Source of the DNA: a virus
Reading direction: 5' to 3' (one strand)
Virus record (IMG/VR): IMGVR_UViG_3300038299_000184
Coordinates: 1-64,000 of that record
Length of the DNA: 64,000 bases
Shown: one piece after another, positions 173 through 53,540 of the stretch
How the letters are laid out: each line of letters opens with the position of its first letter
Position numbering within the stretch: position 1 is the stretch's first letter
Program-made: the position numbers and the translations under genes
Notes under the pieces: model-generated
Databases searched by the model: none
What the model saw: only the letters and a program-made list of their open reading frames with translations
What the model was told of the DNA's origin: nothing

Positions 173-195
173 TATTGAAACATACGTCTCGGATC

Positions 196-291
196 GAAAC
201 AGGAGAATACTAGTAAAATTCCTAAAGTAGTATGGTTAGAGCGGGAGGTTAAAGCCTTTGGTATATAGGTTCGAATCCTATTGTTTCAACC
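196..291 (+). tRNA. aberrant tRNA-like gene with 25-nt insertion
   Basis: The ends pair as an acceptor stem (GAAACAG at 196-202 with TTGTTTC at 281-287), and there is a good T-arm (TTCGAAT loop) and a D-arm-like TAGTATGGTTAGAGC. About 25 extra nucleotides (203-227) lie between the acceptor and position 8. The anticodon arm GGAGG/CCTTT has only a 6-nt loop TTAAAG. The 3' end reads AACC, not CCA. It may be a decayed tRNA, an intron-like insertion or a special tRNA; no amino acid is assigned. Confidence 0.35.
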
Positions 292-299
292 TTTACATC

Positions 300-2936: not shown

Positions 2937-3326
2937 ATGGACTGGGAGAAAACTTTCGAGTCAGCTATCCTCAAGGGGCTGAACTCATACATGAAGACTA
3001 AGAATATAGAGCACGAAGTTCTAGAATCTGATAATGATCTTATTGTAAACATCTATAAAATGGAGAGTGGTGACATAAATATTGTTAATTCATATGGTGA
3101 TCTATTGGTGGAGTATGCTGACCCAGATGCCACACACAGACGTTCTATATTCTTCAACCCCTCCAAGGCTCGTCTGGGTGACTTCGATGTATTCGAGGAC
3201 ATCATACCAGTAGTTAGGATATCCTCATCAATACCTAGTAAAGGTGGCTGGACAAACGAACAGATAGATGTTGACGATTTTAATACCAGTATTCACAACT
3301 GGTTGGATCAATTGGGTCTTTATTAA
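2937..3326 (+). CDS. unknown protein, 129 aa
   Basis: Begins MDWEKTFESAILKGLNSYMK and shows the same layout as the preceding gene: N-terminal helix, beta-rich body, FDVFEDIIPVV motif. TAAATA followed by 5 nt precedes ATG, a variant of the TAATTA box closer to the T4 late promoter TATAAATA. Its 3' end, coding NWLDQLGLY and stop, lies in a 36-bp sequence repeated after the next gene. Confidence 0.7.
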   Translation: MDWEKTFESAILKGLNSYMKTKNIEHEVLESDNDLIVNIYKMESGDINIVNSYGDLLVEYADPDATHRRSIFFNPSKARLGDFDVFEDIIPVVRISSSIPSKGGWTNEQIDVDDFNTSIHNWLDQLGLY

Positions 3327-3332
3327 TTTGAC
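3297..3332 (+). repeat. 36-bp direct repeat, left copy
   Basis: Matches 4207-4242 with two mismatches. It carries the last codons and stop of the upstream gene plus most of a -35 TTGACA. The two copies exactly bracket the Mom-like gene. Confidence 0.85.
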
Positions 3333-3356
3333 ACCACCCTGTGGTTTGTGTATCAT
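3328..3356 (+). promoter_or_regulatory. early-type promoter of the Mom-like gene
   Basis: TTGACA at 3328-3333, 17 nt, TATCAT at 3351-3356, then 7 nt to ATG 3364. The spacer begins CCACC, as in several other early promoters here. Confidence 0.65.
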
Positions 3357-3363
3357 TGCCCCA

Positions 3364-4200
3364 ATGAGTACATTCAATAAGAAGACAGGTTATAAGATGG
3401 CAACCCGAGAGGTAGGCTATCGTGGGACTAAGTTCTCGCCATACTGCTTCCAAAGACAACTCCGTGATAAAAAGGATGATGGTGTCACCGACACACTAGA
3501 GGAGATGAAAAACTGTGTAGTGAAGCAGATTACATTTAAAGAAGCTCAGAACTTCATCCTAGAATTCGAATGGTTAGGTACTATGGGTACCACAAAATTC
3601 AGCTACGGTGTCTTCACCAATGATAGACTGACCGCTGTGTATTGTTTCGGACTAACCGCTGGCACCGCTGCACTATCCCAAGTATTTGGCGAAGAGAATA
3701 AGAAACGGGGTCTAGTATTAGTACGTGGTGCTTGCGCTCCATGGGCATACAGAAACATGTCTAGCTTTGGTATGGGCAAGGTTTTACCAGCACTACATAA
3801 GGAACGTGACATCGATTATCTAATCGCATACTCCGACCCAGAGGCTGGTGAGATAGGTACAGTATACCAAGCAACCAATTGGAACTTCTATGGTATGACA
3901 GCCCCTGTGAACTATCTAGTTCGCCCAGACGGTAAGCGGTCAGACCCAAAACTGATTTCAAAGTATGCCAAGAAGAAAAACATTACATACGCAGAACAGA
4001 AGCAATTGTTCGTAGACGAAGGTTATACCTTCGAGAGGGGTTCTCCAAAACTTAAATACTTCAAGATCATTGGTAACAAAACCATTCGAAAAGAACTCAC
4101 CAAACAGTTGAAAGTTCCTGTATATAAGTACCTTAAACGTATGGACAACATGGAAGACTTATATGGTGTGTTCAAGGCGCAGATTAAAAATTCAAAATAG
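3364..4200 (+). CDS. Mom-like DNA modification / GNAT-fold protein
   Basis: 278 aa. The central block (YGVFTNDRLTAVYCFG, then LVRGACAP, then IAYSDPEAGEIGTVYQATNW, then FYG) matches what I know of phage Mom-family proteins, whose hallmark is VSYADPxxGHxGxIYxATNF. Mu Mom carries out an acyl-type modification of adenine that protects against restriction enzymes. ATG 3364 is set by a TTGACA/TATCAT promoter 7 nt upstream; the longer ORF would read into the previous gene. The gene is flanked by 36-bp direct repeats, suggesting recent insertion. A different GNAT-like activity cannot be excluded. Confidence 0.6.
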   Translation: MSTFNKKTGYKMATREVGYRGTKFSPYCFQRQLRDKKDDGVTDTLEEMKNCVVKQITFKEAQNFILEFEWLGTMGTTKFSYGVFTNDRLTAVYCFGLTAGTAALSQVFGEENKKRGLVLVRGACAPWAYRNMSSFGMGKVLPALHKERDIDYLIAYSDPEAGEIGTVYQATNWNFYGMTAPVNYLVRPDGKRSDPKLISKYAKKKNITYAEQKQLFVDEGYTFERGSPKLKYFKIIGNKTIRKELTKQLKVPVYKYLKRMDNMEDLYGVFKAQIKNSK

Positions 4201-4677: not shown

Positions 4678-5286
4678 ATGAGTAAATTTGGTTATATAAT
4701 AGAGAAAATCAACAGTATGGTGTCAACAGATTCCCGAATCGATGACATAATGGCTTTAGATGGGCAGGATAGGTTGGACTTACTAGGTAAAACCGAATTT
4801 GCTATTATTACATCCGACAGGGCAGATGGTCACAATGCAGCCATTGGGCAGGAAATTAAGGTAGCTAGAGATGGAGGGTCTAAGGAAGAGATGGAGGCTG
4901 TATTGGCTAGAAACAAGGTCGAGGTAGATGAAGGTAATGCTGCTATGAGGCCAAGTCTTGAAGACCGATTAAAATCCAGTGGGTTCAGTTATATGAAGGT
5001 AGTGGGTAAATTCCCCGAAGATATTACTGGTGTTAGTACGACTGAGGTATCATTTCTAGTATTACTAGACGAAGATAATATACAAGGTGGTATTGATACA
5101 TTAAATAAAATTGCACAAGGTTATAAGCAAGACTCTATTTTAGTGGGTAGTGGTACACAGACACCACGCTACAGTTTTGTTTCAGAAACCAAAATTGACC
5201 CTCTGGGTAGTACATTAGTGCCAGCAACATCTAGTGATGCTTACTCCACAATGTTCAAAGATGGGCAGTACTTCACAGTGTCTTAA
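4678..5286 (+). CDS. unknown protein, 202 aa, late-box gene
   Basis: Begins MSKFGYIIEKINSMVSTDSR. No family is recognised with certainty. The block LLGKTEFAIITSDRADGHN followed by a long helix, then VVGKFPEDITGVSTTEVSFLV and a C-terminal sensor-like stretch, resembles phage proteins of unknown function sometimes noted near nucleotide-binding folds. TAATTA at 4667-4672 is exactly 5 nt before ATG. Confidence 0.7.
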   Translation: MSKFGYIIEKINSMVSTDSRIDDIMALDGQDRLDLLGKTEFAIITSDRADGHNAAIGQEIKVARDGGSKEEMEAVLARNKVEVDEGNAAMRPSLEDRLKSSGFSYMKVVGKFPEDITGVSTTEVSFLVLLDEDNIQGGIDTLNKIAQGYKQDSILVGSGTQTPRYSFVSETKIDPLGSTLVPATSSDAYSTMFKDGQYFTVS

Positions 5287-5307
5287 AAAAATATATCACA
5301 AAAAGCT

Positions 5308-5335
5308 TTGACACATTGCCACTATTTTGTATGGT
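5308..5335 (+). promoter_or_regulatory. early-type promoter
   Basis: TTGACA at 5308-5313, 16-nt spacer, TATGGT at 5330-5335, then CACCAC and ATG 5342. The upstream A/T-rich stretch AAAATATATCACAAAAAGCT is repeated almost exactly before the attenuator promoter at 5941 and may be an UP element. Confidence 0.7.
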
Positions 5336-5341
5336 CACCAC

Positions 5342-5923
5342 ATGACACAAACACTATACACCACGGACGACCTAAAAGCAGTAGTAGCAACTCTTAATAA
5401 GAAGGGTGCTGCATATAAGGAACAACCTAAGATCCGACTAATCAAAAGAATTCTAAAATCTTGGGGTAGGAGTATCGGACATAGTTTAAAGTTGGTTAAT
5501 GGTACCGCTAATACAATTTCTGGTAAGGTACAGGTTGAGCTAACCATCAACGGGGAATGCAACCGAAGCGATCTAGCATCCATCACCCTTGAGTGGGTTA
5601 AACGAATTCGCGGCTTCAGATTGGATAACCACCCACCAAAGGTTAATACTCGTCATGCTGCGATTACAGCCCAGAGACAGGCCGATCAATTATTTAACGA
5701 GGAGAAATCTAAGTTCGTTACCGTTGTGTTGGAAGCACTAGGTGGTAGTAATGCCACGACAATTGCAGTAGTAGAGTCCATTAAATTTGGACTAGATACT
5801 AATACGACTCTTGCAATCATCGTTGCAAAAAATCGACATAATCAATTGAGGTTACAATTGAAAACTACTCTTGAAGGTTTGAAGCAGGATTGGCATTCGG
5901 ATAATAAATTAAACAATAACTAA
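5342..5923 (+). CDS. unknown protein, 193 aa
   Basis: Begins MTQTLYTTDDLKAVVATLNK. Basic and mostly helical, with a small beta segment (GKVQVELTINGE) in the first half. No motif recognised. ATG 5342 is chosen because it lies 6 nt after the -10 box of a strong promoter; an upstream in-frame ATG at 5327 overlaps the promoter. Confidence 0.7.
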   Translation: MTQTLYTTDDLKAVVATLNKKGAAYKEQPKIRLIKRILKSWGRSIGHSLKLVNGTANTISGKVQVELTINGECNRSDLASITLEWVKRIRGFRLDNHPPKVNTRHAAITAQRQADQLFNEEKSKFVTVVLEALGGSNATTIAVVESIKFGLDTNTTLAIIVAKNRHNQLRLQLKTTLEGLKQDWHSDNKLNNN

Positions 5924-5940
5924 AATATATCACAAAAAGC

Positions 5941-5968
5941 TTGCAAACTGGCATTAGGTTTGTATAAT
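5941..5968 (+). promoter_or_regulatory. promoter of tRNA attenuator module 1
   Basis: TTGCAA at 5941-5946, 16-nt spacer, TATAAT at 5963-5968 continuing as TATAATTA so that it also contains the late TAATTA box. It is nearly identical to the promoter at 14065-14092, including the upstream A-rich tract and the AGGTTT spacer end. Transcription should start near 5975, leaving a short leader before ATG 5992. Confidence 0.75.
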
Positions 5969-5991
5969 TAAAAACATCAGACAATAACACT

Positions 5992-6084
5992 ATGAACTCC
6001 TTTATCAACATTTCACATTCATCTTTCTCAATCTCGGATTGGGCGGTATGTGTGAGTGCGGATACTAAGAGGTCGTGGTTTTAA
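5992..6084 (+). CDS. leader peptide of tRNA-Trp/Ser/Ser/Cys array, 30 aa
   Basis: The short ORF reads MNSFINISHSSFSISDWAVC, followed by VSADTKRSWF. It has 8 Ser (seven TCN codons), 2 Trp and 1 Cys in 30 residues. The tRNA genes after the terminator are Trp, Ser(UGA), Ser(GGA) and Cys. The segment GGUCGUGGUU (6071-6080) close to the stop codon can pair with AGCUACGACC (6111-6120), which overlaps the base of the terminator. A ribosome at the stop would cover the first arm; one stalled on Ser, Trp or Cys codons would leave it free. This is classical attenuator logic. That the peptide is made is inferred. Confidence 0.65.
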   Translation: MNSFINISHSSFSISDWAVCVSADTKRSWF

Positions 6085-6117
6085 AATTTGAATAACAGAT
6101 AATTAAAATAAGCTACG

Positions 6118-6148
6118 ACCCAATTGGATAACTCCAGTTGGGTTTTTT
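6118..6148 (+). terminator. intrinsic terminator / attenuator
   Basis: An 11-bp stem ACCCAATTGGA/TCCAGTTGGGT with a 4-nt loop TAAC, followed by six T. The first three stem bases (6118-6120) are shared with the competing 10-bp helix 6071-6080/6111-6120. The 96 nt between here and tRNA-Trp hold no other feature I can support. Confidence 0.85.
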
Positions 6149-6244
6149 GTTTATAGGGTTTTTGAGGAGGTTACACCCGAAGTAATCGAACGTCCATAAT
6201 GATGGCTTACCTTTAGGGTAAAAGAGAAACACAAACAAACAAAC

Positions 6245-6316
6245 AGGAGTATCGTATAAAGGTTATTACAGTGGTTTCCAAAACCATTTATCTAGATTCA
6301 AGTTCTAGTGCTCCTG
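6245..6316 (+). tRNA. tRNA-Trp(CCA)
   Basis: Acceptor AGGAGTA/TGCTCCT, discriminator G as usual for Trp. Anticodon stem GTGGT/ACCAT with loop TTCCAAA gives CCA. The gene is followed by CCT, so the terminal A of CCA must be added after transcription. Confidence 0.85.
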
Positions 6317-6323
6317 CCTTATT

Positions 6324-6408
6324 GGAAGATTCCGTCTACGGTGACAAAGTGGTTTTGAACGCCATGGGTACTGAAAGGTACGGGGTTCGAGTCCTCAATT
6401 TTCCGCCA
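6324..6408 (+). tRNA. tRNA-Ser(UGA)
   Basis: Acceptor GGAAGAT/ATTTTCC, discriminator G, encoded CCA. Anticodon stem GTGGT/GCCAT with loop TTTGAAC gives TGA. A long variable arm (GGTACTGAAAGGTAC region) fits a serine tRNA. Confidence 0.85.
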
Positions 6409-6414
6409 TTTAAC

Positions 6415-6501
6415 GGGGTGTTGGCTGAGTGGTTTAAGGTACCGCATTGGAAATGCGGCAGGGTCTAAACGCCCTCACTGGTTCAAATCCAGTACACCCT
6501 T
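6415..6501 (+). tRNA. tRNA-Ser(GGA)
   Basis: Acceptor GGGGTGT/ACACCCT. Anticodon stem CCGCA/TGCGG with loop TTGGAAA gives GGA. Long variable arm. No complete CCA is encoded (TTCA follows). Confidence 0.85.
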
Positions 6502-6509
6502 CATAACAA

Positions 6510-6580
6510 GATGCCGTGGTAGAGCGGTAATACATGGGTTTGCAAAACCCTCAACACTGGTTCGAGTCCAGTCGGCATCT
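6510..6580 (+). tRNA. tRNA-Cys(GCA)
   Basis: Acceptor GATGCCG/CGGCATC, discriminator T as is usual for Cys. The anticodon loop TTGCAAA gives GCA. Only CC of CCA is encoded. Confidence 0.85.
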
Positions 6581-6582
6581 CC

Positions 6583-6852
6583 TTATTCAACCACAATAGT
6601 CAGATCACCTTGATCATGAGAGATTGTCTTAACGGCAACCCCTTCAATGATAACTTGTGGTAATAGAAGATCTGGAATATCTTCTGTGTTGTTGTTAGAT
6701 CTAGTCTTAGCAACTTCCAATTCCTTTTCGGTGAACAGTAGACTAACTACTTCACCGTTTTCATAAACATGAACATGAACGTATTCTGCTGTAGCCGAGT
6801 TATATCTTTTGGTATTCTCAACACGCAGTAGACTCCCTAGTTTAGATTTCAT
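6583..6852 (-). CDS. unknown protein, 89 aa
   Basis: Begins MKSKLGSLLRVENTKRYNSA; beta-rich (YVHVHVYENGEVVSLLF), acidic. On the minus strand a TAATTA box (6858-6863) lies exactly 5 nt before ATG. It runs convergently toward the Trp/Ser/Ser/Cys tRNA array and ends 2 nt from tRNA-Cys. No family recognised. Confidence 0.65.
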   Translation of the reverse strand: MKSKLGSLLRVENTKRYNSATAEYVHVHVYENGEVVSLLFTEKELEVAKTRSNNNTEDIPDLLLPQVIIEGVAVKTISHDQGDLTIVVE

Positions 6853-6874: not shown

Positions 6875-6951
6875 GCAAGATTAGCTCAGTCGGTAGAGCT
6901 GGGGGTTTACATCCCCTGTAAGCATAGGTTCAAGCCCTATATCTTGTACCA
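6875..6951 (+). tRNA. tRNA-Val(UAC)
   Basis: Acceptor GCAAGAT/ATCTTGT, discriminator A, encoded CCA. Anticodon stem GGGGG/CCCCT with loop TTTACAT gives TAC. Confidence 0.9.
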
Positions 6952-7024: not shown

Positions 7025-7108
7025 GGGGTGCATGGCAACATGGGTGTTGCATTTCCTTTGCAAGGAAGCATTCAAGTTAAAAGAGTTCGATTCTCTTGTG
7101 CTCCACCA
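7025..7108 (+). tRNA. tRNA-Ala(UGC)
   Basis: Acceptor GGGGTGC/GTGCTCC with several G-U pairs, discriminator A, encoded CCA. Anticodon stem TTTCC/GGAAG with loop TTTGCAA gives TGC. The variable region is unusually long (about 11 nt) for a class I tRNA and the D-arm stem GCAAC/GTTGC is long. The 70 nt between it and tRNA-Val hold nothing I can name. Confidence 0.8.
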
Positions 7109-9989: not shown

Positions 9990-10235
9990 ATGTCAACACG
10001 AGCAGATAGAATATCTGACCACTACTCTATAGTATTCAAATATGGGTCAAAGTTTAAGACCATTATAACACCAGAGTCTGGTTGTGGGATATGCCCAAGC
10101 GAGGCATGGGTGTTTGGTGGGCCTATGACCAAGTGTGATAAAGAAATTAGTATGTCCTGTGAGCCTGTTATACAGTCACTAGATATACCAGTACACAGAA
10201 TAAAATCAACGGAAGATTTACTAGACAGGGTCTAG
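9990..10235 (+). CDS. unknown protein, 81 aa
   Basis: Begins MSTRADRISDHYSIVFKYGS. Three cysteines in a GCGICPSEAW context and two later (KCDKEISMSC), possibly a metal site. TTGACA (9956-9961) lies just after tRNA-Ile, but the -10 is poor. The last 25 nt overlap the 5' end of tRNA-Ser(GCU), so RNase P processing of the tRNA would cut the mRNA before its stop codon. Confidence 0.55.
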   Translation: MSTRADRISDHYSIVFKYGSKFKTIITPESGCGICPSEAWVFGGPMTKCDKEISMSCEPVIQSLDIPVHRIKSTEDLLDRV

Positions 10236-10298
10236 GCTGGATTGCTAATCCAAGTACACCACTAGTGGTGTGGGGATCGTGCCCTCAATCTTCTGCCA
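10211..10298 (+). tRNA. tRNA-Ser(GCU)
   Basis: Acceptor GGAAGAT/ATCTTCT, discriminator G, encoded CCA. Anticodon loop TTGCTAA gives GCT. The variable arm contains the perfect 16-nt palindrome ACACCACTAGTGGTGT (10256-10271). It overlaps the end of the upstream CDS by 25 nt. Confidence 0.85.
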
Positions 10299-10349
10299 TA
10301 TTGTATGTGTTTCTCTTACACCATTCTATAATTATATAGAACTGTGACT

Positions 10350-11272: not shown

Positions 11273-11616
11273 GGGGCTGATTTGGTTTCGACTTTAATCA
11301 ATAATTACCCAGTATCAACCAAGGTGGTTCCAAGACCTGCTGATAAGATCAACCAAAATGACGAAAATACAGTCGCTCTAGCTGCCTAGGCAGTGAGCCA
11401 CACAGGACTTCTATCAACCCTGTATGGCTAAGAGTAATAAGATAGTGCATTCGGTGTAAGACATCGACAGCTACCCATACAGGCTGTTAAATACAGGATG
11501 GTGAGTCAGATATCATACACTGACTAGTGTGAACAACGAAATGGTTCAAAAATGGTTGTAGACGTACTGAGATACGATGATTAAAACAAGCAGTTCAACT
11601 CTGCACAGCTCCACCA
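11273..11616 (+). ncRNA. ssrA: tmRNA (transfer-messenger RNA)
   Basis: 344 nt. Starts GGGGCTGATTTGGTTTCGAC and ends GTTCAACTCTGCACAGCTCC plus ACCA; the ends form the alanyl acceptor GGGGCTG/CAGCTCC with the conserved G3-U70 wobble. The tag reading frame ends NDENTVALAA and stop (11387-11389), with INQ codons just before; the exact resume codon is uncertain. tmRNA rescues stalled ribosomes and marks the product for ClpXP. It is one-piece, with downstream pseudoknot-like repeats, and a terminator follows. The phage also encodes ClpX at 62519. Confidence 0.95.
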
Positions 11617-13137: not shown

Positions 13138-13575
13138 TTATACATCGGAAGGAACAAAGGGTTTGGCGACCAAGAGTGACTGAAGATAAATCGGGTTTCG
13201 TTGATATCGCCATTGATACGAATCAGTATGTTAGTACAAGTCCAATCAGAAAAGGTCGCAGGTTCGAATCCTGTCTAATCATCCACAGTGGTGTTTAGTA
13301 GCTCAGTTGGTAGAGCAGTTTTGTATAAAGACTAGGAGGGTGCAATTCCTTCCATACATTCCGATGTAAAATAAATAGGATGGATTGATATGACAGACAA
13401 CTTGACGGGGTCGCGACCCCTCGGGAGAGGGGATATCAATTTAGACTAGTGGTGTATATCGTCAGTCTGAAAAAATACTGAACTATCCACTACGAAGAAC
13501 ATAACAGTGGCTGGGTATAGCATTCCACAATGTGCTAGGGGTGCCCCCTAGAGATAACCAACTCAGTCACTGTTG
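13138..13575 (+). ncRNA. structured non-coding region with tRNA-like fragments
   Basis: About 440 nt without a convincing ORF. At 13250-13285 there is a good tRNA 3' half (T-loop TTCGAAT, then CTAATCA, T and CCA) with no matching 5' half. At 13295-13340 there is a 5'-half-like stretch (GTAGCTCAGTTGGTAGAGC and an anticodon-like stem AGTTT/AGACT) with no matching acceptor. Beyond lie GC-rich hairpins (GGGGTCGCGACCCC and CCCCTC/GAGGGG near 13406-13435), an AGACT/AGTCT stem and a 10-bp closing stem ACAGTGGCTG/CAGTCACTGT enclosing two hairpins. It may hold disrupted tRNAs or novel RNAs. Confidence 0.4.
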
Positions 13576-13730: not shown

Positions 13731-14042
13731 ATGAACCTAAACGAACAAATCAAAGCCGACTACGAACAGTTGAAAACAACTAAACGTACTTGGCGGTTGG
13801 ATGAGACCAATTGTAAAGTGACAACCATACTCAATAGTATGGAAACCCACGAGCAAGATGCAGAGTTTGAGGTAGATGCTATGACAGGGGCAATGCTAGA
13901 ATGTAGTATGCACTTTAAAGGAACTCTTGACGAAGTGGTTCGAGATAAATCAATCCTAATTGGGTCATTAGTAGCTGGAACTAAGAAGGCACTAGTATTT
14001 GCCACAGACGATAGCACCACAAACGTGGTCAAAATAAAATAA
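13731..14042 (+). CDS. unknown protein, 103 aa
   Basis: Begins MNLNEQIKADYEQLKTTKRT; a helical start and a beta-rich rest (DAEFEVDAMTGAMLECSMHF). ATG lies 6 nt after tRNA-Met CCA, so the two are likely cotranscribed. No family recognised. Confidence 0.6.
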   Translation: MNLNEQIKADYEQLKTTKRTWRLDETNCKVTTILNSMETHEQDAEFEVDAMTGAMLECSMHFKGTLDEVVRDKSILIGSLVAGTKKALVFATDDSTTNVVKIK

Positions 14043-14064
14043 TTCAAAATATATCAAATAAAAC

Positions 14065-14092
14065 TTGCAAACTGTAATAGGTTTACTATAAT
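14065..14092 (+). promoter_or_regulatory. promoter of tRNA attenuator module 2
   Basis: TTGCAA at 14065-14070, 16-nt spacer, TATAAT at 14087-14092 continuing as TATAATTA. Nearly the same sequence as 5941-5968 including flanks, indicating a dedicated promoter type for the two attenuator modules. Confidence 0.75.
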
Positions 14093-14102
14093 TAAAAGCG
14101 TA

Positions 14103-14177
14103 ATGAAGAACAACACACAACAACAGTATCAACCTCAACCGTATCCTATGGACTCGGGTGGTTCTATTGTTGTCTAG
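14103..14177 (+). CDS. leader peptide of tRNA-Tyr/Pro/Gln array, 24 aa
   Basis: The peptide begins MKNNTQQQYQPQPYPMDSGG and ends SIVV. It has 5 Gln (four CAA, one CAG), 2 Tyr (TAT) and 3 Pro (CCT, CCG, CCT), clustered in ten consecutive codons. After the terminator come tRNA-Tyr(GUA), an odd tRNA, tRNA-Pro(UGG) and tRNA-Gln(UUG). TCGGGT (14154-14159) inside the ORF just after this run is complementary to ACCCGA (14206-14211) in the terminator 5' arm. Ribosome stalling on Gln/Tyr/Pro codons would favour the antiterminator. Expression of the peptide is inferred. Confidence 0.65.
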   Translation: MKNNTQQQYQPQPYPMDSGGSIVV

Positions 14178-14204
14178 TAAGTTACATTACAGAAACAAAT
14201 GTTC

Positions 14205-14237
14205 AACCCGAATCCTTAATTGGTTTCGGGTTTTTTT
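14205..14237 (+). terminator. intrinsic terminator / attenuator
   Basis: AACCCGAA pairs with TTCGGGTT, extended by CC/GG inside, loop TTAATT, followed by a run of T. The 5' arm can alternatively pair with TCGGGT in the leader ORF. Confidence 0.85.
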
Positions 14238-14264
14238 GTGTCCAGTAAAGGTCAAAACAAATAT

Positions 14265-14349
14265 GGGTGTGTTGGGCAATTGGTTGCCTAGCGGATTGTA
14301 ACTCCGTGGGCGAAAGTCGTTGTAGGTTCGAGTCCTACCATACCCACCA
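14265..14349 (+). tRNA. tRNA-Tyr(GUA)
   Basis: Acceptor GGGTGTG/CATACCC, discriminator A, encoded CCA. Anticodon stem GCGGA/TCCGT with loop TTGTAAC gives GTA; a class II variable arm as in bacterial Tyr tRNAs. Confidence 0.9.
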
Positions 14350-14352
14350 TAT

Positions 14353-14426
14353 CGATACATAGCTCAACGGTAGAGTACCACCTAATGGGGGTGGAGATTG
14401 CGGTTCAATTCCGTGTGTATCGACCA
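14353..14426 (+). tRNA. tRNA, anticodon formally AUG (His?), atypical loop
   Basis: A regular 74-nt cloverleaf: acceptor CGATACA/TGTATCG, D-stem GCTC/GAGT, T-arm TGCGG/CCGTG with loop TTCAATT, discriminator A, encoded CCA. Anticodon stem CCACC/GGTGG closes loop TAATGGG, which formally gives ATG but has A at position 33 instead of U. C1-G72 and A73 are not His-like. Amino acid unassigned; it may be non-canonical or mutated. Confidence 0.7.
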
Positions 14427-14465: not shown

Positions 14466-14543
14466 CAGAGTGTTGGGTAATTGGCTACCCGCCTAGTTTG
14501 GATCTAGGAGATAATGCAGGTTCGAATCCTGTCACTCTGACCA
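14466..14543 (+). tRNA. tRNA-Pro(UGG)
   Basis: Acceptor CAGAGTG/CACTCTG with the C1-G72 typical of Pro, discriminator A, encoded CCA. Anticodon stem CCTAG/CTAGG with loop TTTGGAT gives TGG. Confidence 0.9.
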
Positions 14544-14546
14544 TAT

Positions 14547-14621
14547 AGGGATATAGTGTAATGGTTAGCACCGAAAACTTTGAATTTTCTAGTCTAGGTT
14601 CGAGTCCTAGTGTCCCTTCCA
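14547..14621 (+). tRNA. tRNA-Gln(UUG)
   Basis: Acceptor AGGGATA/TGTCCCT, encoded CCA. Anticodon stem GAAAA/TTTTC with loop CTTTGAA gives TTG. Confidence 0.9.
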
Positions 14622-16596: not shown

Positions 16597-16881
16597 ATGA
16601 GCGAAGTAAAAAAGTTGTACAGGGTAACGATTGGTGACACCACTACAGAATTAGATGAAGAGGCTATGTTGGCACTACAGAAGCAAATTAATGATGCTAT
16701 TGGTGTTAATAAAATACCTCTTGGATTTATTCCCAGAGGGACACCACCCCCAAGAGAGTCACCTATTACACCCCCTTACCAATCACCAGACATTTGGTGT
16801 GGTCTGGCTTCGGGTAGTATTATTAAATCACCTATTGATCAACTAGAAGAGTTCCGTGCCCCGTCAGAGCGAACCCATTGA
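16597..16881 (+). CDS. unknown protein, 94 aa
   Basis: Begins MSEVKKLYRVTIGDTTTELD; an N-terminal beta/alpha unit resembling a phage protein with a short helix (EEAMLALQKQINDAIG), then a proline-rich tail (PRGTPPPRESPITPPYQSP). No family recognised. Ends 38 nt before the terminase start. Confidence 0.65.
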   Translation: MSEVKKLYRVTIGDTTTELDEEAMLALQKQINDAIGVNKIPLGFIPRGTPPPRESPITPPYQSPDIWCGLASGSIIKSPIDQLEEFRAPSERTH

Positions 16882-52379: not shown

Positions 52380-53540
52380 ATGTACCATTCAATCACCAAG
52401 TTTAATACTACTGAGGGTAATCTAGACTTTGACAGACTCGTCAAAGAACTACAGGACAACGTAGATCTAGGATTCATCAATATGAAGACTAAGGGCGACC
52501 TAACTCTTTATGATTATTCCAAGAGCTGTACATATGAGCGAGCATGGAACGATGCTACTCGTATCGCTCGTGGTCTGGTTCTGGACATCCCTAACAAAGA
52601 AGTTGTGGCTCTTCCTTTCGAGAAGTTCTACAACCAAGGGGATGAACACGAACTCAATGGTCTCGAACTTGGTGATTTTTGTAAAGGAGGTTTCTTCGAA
52701 AAGATGGATGGATCTTGTGTCATCATTTACTTCTATAATGGGGAGTGGTGTGTTAACACCCGTGGCTCATTCGACTCTGATCAAGCTATCAAGGGTAAGG
52801 AATTACTTGACTCACAAATCGATACACAGCTCCTTATGAAGGGTGTAACATACATTTGTGAAGTAATTTATAAAGATAACAAAATTGTTGTAAATTACGG
52901 TGATCGCGAAGGTCTGGTACTCACTGGTAAATATTACTCTAAAGGTGATAGTGATATCTTCCACTTTGGTGAGGAATGTCTAACTGACCCACAATGTGTT
53001 AAAATTTTCTGTGAACTATTAGGGTTTCAACAACCACAAGTTCACTACTTCGGAAGTATTGAACAAGCGAAAGCTGCAACTGATTCGTTCACCAAGGATG
53101 AAGAAGGTTTTGTATACCGCTCTGGTAACGGAGTCCGTGTTAAGATCAAGGGTGATGAGTACTGTCGAGTTCATGGTTTGATCTCATATCATACACCACT
53201 GTTTCTATGGCGTGAATTCGTAGAGGGGGGTCACCAAGGTTGTCAAGAACGTAAGAAGGATATCCCAGAGGAATTATGGGATGAATTAGAAGAATGGCTT
53301 GACATCTTCGAGAAAAACCACCAGTATGTAGTTGAACAGGTTAAGGAACAGGCTAAAATCTTCGCACATCTGAGCAACAAAGAATTAGGTCTTGAAATGT
53401 CTGATATTAAACAGACTCACAAAGGTCTATTCTTCTCGCTCCGAAATGACAAACAATTCGGTACAATCAACTCCACGTCACACAGAACAATCTGTAACAT
53501 GTTCGAACCAACCAACAACACCATTAAGGAGTTATACTAA
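52380..53540 (+). CDS. T4 Rnl1-type RNA ligase
   Basis: 386 aa (T4 Rnl1 is 374). Adenylation motif I EKMDGS with Lys near 108, upstream IARGLVLD and downstream VNTRGSFDSD and EGFVYRSGNGVRVKIKGDEY (motifs IV and V). T4 Rnl1 reseals tRNA cut in the anticodon loop by host PrrC. The phage also carries a kinase and a HAD phosphatase that could prepare ends. Confidence 0.9.
   Translation: MYHSITKFNTTEGNLDFDRLVKELQDNVDLGFINMKTKGDLTLYDYSKSCTYERAWNDATRIARGLVLDIPNKEVVALPFEKFYNQGDEHELNGLELGDFCKGGFFEKMDGSCVIIYFYNGEWCVNTRGSFDSDQAIKGKELLDSQIDTQLLMKGVTYICEVIYKDNKIVVNYGDREGLVLTGKYYSKGDSDIFHFGEECLTDPQCVKIFCELLGFQQPQVHYFGSIEQAKAATDSFTKDEEGFVYRSGNGVRVKIKGDEYCRVHGLISYHTPLFLWREFVEGGHQGCQERKKDIPEELWDELEEWLDIFEKNHQYVVEQVKEQAKIFAHLSNKELGLEMSDIKQTHKGLFFSLRNDKQFGTINSTSHRTICNMFEPTNNTIKELY

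Follow-up and report, generated by a model that had tools for sequence, protein, structure and literature searches.

Putative leader-peptide attenuators upstream of two tRNA operons in a distant relative of phage T4

Ribosome-mediated attenuators have been described in biosynthetic operons and in the aminoacyl-tRNA synthetase genes pheST, trpS, and leuS, the last two in Streptomyces (PMC1262725). The reason phages have tRNA genes has been disputed for more than 50 years, and hosts have been proposed to deplete tRNAs during infection (PMC10264068). Here, we describe two tRNA operons in one phage genome, each preceded by a promoter, a short leader ORF, and an intrinsic terminator. Judging from the sequence, we consider it very probable that both operons are controlled by trp-type ribosome-mediated transcription attenuation, which would sense the charged tRNAs that the operon itself supplies. 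We found no report of attenuation of tRNA genes, or of attenuation in phages, in the open-access literature; a report elsewhere is not excluded. As far as we could find, this classic bacterial switch is apparently new on tRNA genes and in a virus.

The phage and its two tRNA modules

The window analyzed here is the first 64 kb of the 127,787-base viral record IMGVR_UViG_3300038299_000184. The record belongs to a myovirus that is a distant relative of T4: it encodes a gp17-type terminase, a gp20-type portal, and a gp23-type capsid protein. Its genome also contains a tmRNA and the gene for an RNA ligase of the T4 RnlA type. The closest protein matches in cultured phages are ~33% (capsid) and ~30% (terminase) identical. 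The host of the phage is unidentified, and both independent modules and the ortholog described below are known from metagenomic contigs only, without expression data.

Window 11273-11616: phage-encoded tmRNA (53 bits)
Window 52380-53540: T4-RnlA-type RNA ligase

An earlier note on this DNA had proposed that the first tRNA operon is preceded by an attenuator, with a promoter at 5941-5968, a 30-codon ORF at 5992-6084, a terminator at 6118-6148, and a 10-bp helix (6071-6080 with 6111-6120) that competes with the base of the terminator. Each of these leader elements was found again, as follows.

5941-5968, forward strand: leader 1 promoter, TTGCAA-16-TATAAT
5992-6084, forward strand: leader peptide 1, 30-codon ORF MNSFINISHSSFSISDWAVCVSADTKRSWF
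6071-6080, forward strand: 5' arm of the leader 1 antiterminator, within the final ORF codons
6111-6120, forward strand: 3' arm of the leader 1 antiterminator, reaching into the terminator stem at its base
About 6117-6149, forward strand: intrinsic terminator 1 with U-tract
6245-6318, forward strand: tRNA-Trp(CCA), ARAGORN
About 6324-6408, forward strand: tRNA-Ser(UGA), hand-made cloverleaf only
6415-6502, forward strand: tRNA-Ser(GGA), ARAGORN
6510-6582, forward strand: tRNA-Cys(GCA), ARAGORN

Leader 1 contains eight Ser codons (seven of them TCN), two Trp codons, and one Cys codon, as the note had counted. Terminator 1 is the strongest in the region, with 12 paired positions and a predicted energy of -15.9 to -17.7 kcal/mol. 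The 10-bp helix (-14.2 kcal/mol) has bases 6118-6120 in common with the terminator stem. The tRNA array was confirmed by ARAGORN for Trp, Ser(GGA), and Cys; the claimed tRNA-Ser(UGA) was called by neither ARAGORN nor Rfam and stands on a cloverleaf drawn by eye (acceptor GGAAGAT/ATTTTCC, anticodon loop UUUGAAC).

Several features adjoin this module. An exact 21-base repeat occurs at window 5288-5308, ahead of the promoter that serves the gene at 5342, and at 5922-5942, ahead of the leader 1 promoter, which suggests a common promoter class for that gene and leader 1. S-adenosylmethionine lyase-like and Mom-like genes (window 4678-5286 and 3268-4200) lie next to leader 1; an anti-restriction role for them is plausible. 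Beyond an opposing gene after array 1, there are a tRNA-Val(UAC) and a tRNA-Ala(UGC)-like gene (window 6875-6951 and 7026-7107). Codons 17-23 of leader 1 read Trp-Ala-Val-Cys-Val-Ser-Ala; given these Ala and Val codons, the operon, and with it the set of control codons, may reach beyond array 1, although we have no significance figure for this.

In a genome search with the leader 1 region, the promoter block at 5915-5973 recurred at 14038-14097 with 84% identity over 60 bp. Through this promoter similarity a second module, absent from the earlier note, was found at 14065-14238. Because it was not used in forming the hypothesis, module 2 is an independent test.

14065-14092, forward strand: leader 2 promoter, TTGCAA-16-TATAAT
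14103-14177, forward strand: leader peptide 2, 24-codon ORF MKNNTQQQYQPQPYPMDSGGSIVV with a near-leaderless start
14118-14147, forward strand: control-codon block, codons 6-15, corresponding to attenuator region 1
14150-14161, forward strand: 5' arm of the leader 2 antiterminator, corresponding to attenuator region 2
14204-14238, forward strand: antiterminator 3' arm and terminator 2 with U-tract, corresponding to attenuator regions 3 and 4
14265-14349, forward strand: tRNA-Tyr(GUA), ARAGORN
14353-14426, forward strand: tRNA of uncertain identity (ARAGORN: His, AUG)
14466-14543, forward strand: tRNA-Pro(UGG), ARAGORN
14547-14621, forward strand: tRNA-Gln(UUG), ARAGORN

Codons 6-15 of leader 2 are ten consecutive codons, every one of them for Gln, Tyr, or Pro. 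The tRNA at 14353 has the anticodon loop UAAUGGG, without U33, and this His-like tRNA has no matching codons in leader 2. An attenuator should have a short leader ORF that follows the promoter and precedes both the terminator and the regulated genes, and this criterion is fulfilled. The rest of the window genome yielded no further tRNAs. Window 175-292, 10213-10300, and 13201-13370 contain tRNA-like 3' halves and tRNA genes that are degenerate or interrupted, which ARAGORN did not call; the one near 13292 scores 22 bits, and the one at 175-292 has ~45 extra bases between acceptor and D-arm.

An ortholog of module 2 is carried by contig IMGVR_UViG_3300009130_000031 (L004), whose terminase is 84% identical to that of the phage.

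L004, 6008-6079: leader ORF MKTYTQQYQYQSYLMDAGSAVVV

The same terminator as in module 2 follows, then a Tyr(GUA)-like tRNA at ~6163 and a tRNA-Gln at 6258. The Tyr-like tRNA lacks a normal D-arm and was called by neither ARAGORN nor Rfam. The array thus read comprises Tyr and Gln, with no tRNA-Pro. The leader keeps its Tyr and Gln codons, and the three Pro codons of leader 2 are replaced by Tyr, Ser, or Leu codons, so that no Pro codon is left. The earlier note had suggested comparing relatives for covariation of leader codons and array, and had held that unrelated leader codons ahead of the same array would refute its reading; the opposite was found, with the leader of the relative tracking its reduced array. 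In the alignment of the two ORFs there is one 3-base indel, and 7, 3, and 9 differences fall on codon positions 1, 2, and 3, respectively; five changes are synonymous, the stop codon among them. This pattern looks like that of a translated frame. Leader 1 and array 1 are missing from L004 where the neighboring gene (window 6583-6852) is conserved. The L004 leader is not independent of leader 2; the evidence consists of two independent modules and one ortholog.

Codon content of the leaders

Codon matches were evaluated relative to codon usage in the phage itself (13,794 codons). Ten of the 29 codons of leader 1 are read by the tRNAs of array 1 (2.0 expected, P = 1.4e-5), and 10 of 23 codons in leader 2 match array 2 (2.5 expected, P = 7e-5); for the L004 leader and its array the count is 8 of 22 (1.65 expected, P = 1.2e-4). 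Windows of equal length from the phage's real genes reached these counts in 0 of 12,534, 5 of 12,804, and 0 of 12,849 cases, respectively. Among amino-acid sets of the same size, Cys-Ser-Trp ranks 2nd of 1140 for leader 1, Pro-Gln-Tyr ranks 1st of 1140 triples for leader 2, and Gln-Tyr ranks 1st of 190 for the L004 leader. When each leader is compared to the array of the other module, leader 1 contains zero Gln, Tyr, or Pro codons, and leader 2 contains 2 codons for array 1 (1.6 expected). The match that the earlier note had seen in leader 1 recurs in an unrelated leader of the same genome, which fits its own Tyr/Pro/Gln array, and the criterion that an attenuator leader be enriched for codons cognate to the function of its operon is met.

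The leader ORFs could also be ordinary small genes with their own terminators, the match to the arrays being coincidental and the tRNAs being transcribed from separate promoters or through constitutive partial read-through. The genome does contain many small ORFs, and a weak promoter-like site (9/12, 19-nt spacer, 6170-6200) is present between terminator 1 and tRNA-Trp. However, two unrelated leaders match their arrays, and the L004 leader has altered along with its array. The gap from the terminator to the first tRNA measures only 25-26 nt in module 2 and L004, with no promoter-like site in it and no room for another sigma70 promoter; the tRNAs of these two modules are thus probably transcribed through the terminator. 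We also surveyed 94 tRNA clusters (221 tRNAs) from this phage, from its relatives, and from 11 phages in culture, among them T4, KVP40, and Felix O1. Nine of these clusters have a terminator-like hairpin at most 420 bases upstream, and array-matched leader ORFs precede only three clusters, those of leader 1, leader 2, and L004; the other six with a hairpin show no codon match (ORF P values from 0.17 to 1, or no ORF). We regard coincidence with ordinary genes as quite unlikely. The survey indicates that this leader arrangement is a specific device, known so far only in this small lineage.

Searches for further copies had the same outcome. No match was obtained in cultured phages, neither in nucleotide searches that used the leader region or 1-20 kb as query nor in a tblastn search with leader peptide 2. 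Viral contigs scanned with TerL, the major capsid protein, the array-neighbor genes, and the terminator pattern contained the module in L004 only, and a scan of genome contigs found no relative. Six distant relatives have tRNA clusters without an upstream terminator.

A Shine-Dalgarno sequence is absent from the leaders, and likewise from 34 of the 35 phage genes checked. Genes of this type are normal in this phage, so a start codon only a few bases after the promoter is no argument against translation of the leaders. As a separate observation, TAATTAA occurs within 30 nt upstream of 26 of the 175 ORFs of at least 100 aa (1.0 expected; whole record, both strands), and in 20 of those 26 it lies exactly 11 nt before the ATG. 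It is probably a late-promoter element from which short or leaderless mRNAs arise; the leader promoters also contain it (TATAATTAAAA). A palindrome of the type CACCAC(N)GTGGTG is found in the spacer of several sigma70-like promoters just upstream of the ATG (window 8198, 15794, and 63797; record 114596, 115505, 124179, and others), and resembles an operator for one regulator.

Alternative helices and ribosome position

In all three leaders, an antiterminator (2:3) duplex can form that excludes the terminator (3:4) helix, as an attenuator requires; this is met in the sequence and in modeling. The 2:3 duplexes have predicted energies of -14.2 (leader 1), -13.9 (leader 2), and -13.5 kcal/mol (L004), and the 3:4 helices -15.9, -14.4, and -14.5 kcal/mol, respectively. 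Among 2000 shuffles of each leader, 16 (leader 1), 39 (leader 2), and 4 (L004) equaled or exceeded the observed leader-terminator duplex. A protector 1:2 hairpin, formed between the control-codon region and the arm of the antiterminator, is present in leader 2 (-19.2 kcal/mol) and L004 (-19.7 kcal/mol) and is not evident in leader 1.

The position of the ribosome was modeled in a thermodynamic calculation, with the RNA truncated before the 3' arm of the terminator and only the RNA downstream of the ribosome free to pair. The modeled probability of the antiterminator in leader 1 is at least 0.86 with the ribosome on codons 1-22 and 0 from codon 25. In leader 2, it is 0.54-0.80 on codons 1-13 and 0 from codon 16, and in L004 it is 0.63-0.72 on codons 1-11 and 0 from codon 14. 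The modeled switch points fall at codons 23-24, 13-16, and 12-14, and 8 of 10, 8 of 10, and 7 of 8 matching codons (leader 1, leader 2, and L004, respectively) are reached before the probability drops below 0.5. Codons 28-29 of leader 1 (Ser, Trp) are past the switch point and would not be useful stall sites. The earlier proposal that a ribosome at the stop codon masks the antiterminator arm and a stalled one frees it was reproduced in this modeling for all three leaders; the corresponding criterion, an antiterminator that is free with the ribosome on the control codons and not at the stop, is met by modeling only. Without a ribosome, the modeled antiterminator probability is 0.02 in leader 2 and 0.01 in L004, where the 1:2 hairpin would keep the switch off, as in trp. 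For leader 1 the value is 0.94, and, in the model, this leader seems to leave its antiterminator open without a ribosome, unlike leader 2.

Codon sensing might instead have a different output, if the stalled ribosome altered RNA processing, Rho access, or the coupling of polymerase and ribosome, and no antiterminator helix were involved. The overlap of only three bases between antiterminator and terminator stem in leader 1 would allow this, as would the full-length minimum free energy folds, most of which retain the terminator, usually even with a stalled ribosome. The retained terminator implies for the attenuation reading that the switch depends on the order of co-transcriptional folding, as in trp. 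An antiterminator of similar strength is correctly placed in all three leaders and is rare in shuffled sequences, and we consider a different output very unlikely.

Direct sensing of uncharged tRNA by a T-box-type riboswitch, with the ORF merely incidental, was also considered, as the genes under control encode tRNAs and each leader finishes with a terminator for which an alternative helix exists. However, cmscan reported no T-box match at gathering or relaxed thresholds, and the ORF, with its several types of control codon, stays open across a 3-nt indel; a T-box is scarcely credible here. The Rfam amino-acid leader families (Trp, His, Phe, and others) likewise had no match at the window loci. 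A Phe_leader match in L055 scored 27 bits against a cut-off of 55 and was rejected as a terminator after a long gene. The other strong leader-terminator duplexes that a genome-wide control brought up, near 16717, 103136, 108529, and 125775, showed, by eye, no arrangement of leader and tRNAs.

Proposed mechanism and comparison with known systems

Under trp-type attenuation, RNA polymerase would initiate at the leader promoter, followed by a ribosome that translates the short leader ORF. With charged tRNAs for the control codons plentiful, the ribosome would reach the region of the stop codon and mask the 5' arm of the antiterminator or let it refold; the terminator would form, leaving the tRNA genes untranscribed. 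Should any of these charged tRNAs be scarce, the ribosome would stall on the control codons and the antiterminator would pair with the 5' arm of the terminator. Polymerase would then read through, and tRNAs reading exactly those codons would be made. The net effect would be negative feedback on tRNA supply.

The attenuation reading of the earlier note gains support from the codon match in module 2 and the covariation in L004; how ribosome, polymerase, and tRNAs behave remains inference. The anatomy, the codon match in two independent modules, the covariation in one relative, and the alternative helices can be read from the nucleotides themselves; translation of the ORFs, stalling, read-through, and the natural trigger are inferred. 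With two unrelated leaders each fitting its own array, and the leader of a relative covarying, this case rests on firmer evidence than most predicted attenuators do.

We infer that the natural trigger would be loss of host tRNAs, by degradation or through a host nuclease, rather than amino-acid starvation; tRNA shortage is the more sensible trigger because making tRNA is no help against a lack of amino acids. By inference, the RNA ligase and the wide tRNA set would suit a phage able to cope with damage to tRNAs. The operons may thereby form a self-correcting tRNA supply that probes its own tRNAs: the phage would detect which host tRNAs were destroyed, by its own takeover or by an anticodon-nuclease defense, and replace just that group. 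We see the case for this wider role as evenly balanced. An operon that reveals its own responsive codons would indicate at what times each tRNA is needed by the phage, and the tRNA-depletion hypothesis becomes directly testable by reporter. Leader-peptide attenuation would be extended to tRNA genes and to viruses.

Like the phage tRNAs discussed as a counter-defense against host tRNA nucleases (PMC10264068), these operons supply tRNAs possibly depleted in infection; that paper concerns nuclease-resistant sequences and contains nothing on attenuation or a leader. T-box riboswitches also control a terminator and antiterminator by the charging status of tRNA; unlike them, the phage modules are proposed to sense through a translated ORF. 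The attenuators of the aminoacyl-tRNA synthetase genes (pheST; trpS and leuS in Streptomyces; PMC1262725) apply the same logic to a component of tRNA charging. However, they are bacterial, respond to a single amino acid, and their product charges the tRNA, whereas the phage modules yield the very tRNAs by which the control codons are read. With the trp- and his-type attenuators the phage modules have in common the promoter, the short leader ORF with control codons, the terminator with a U-tract, the position of the ribosome as sensor, and the mutually exclusive 1:2, 2:3, and 3:4 helices (except for 1:2 in leader 1). In contrast to these attenuators, they are located in a phage, start near-leaderless without a Shine-Dalgarno sequence, and regulate tRNA genes rather than biosynthetic enzymes, with several amino acids sensed together.
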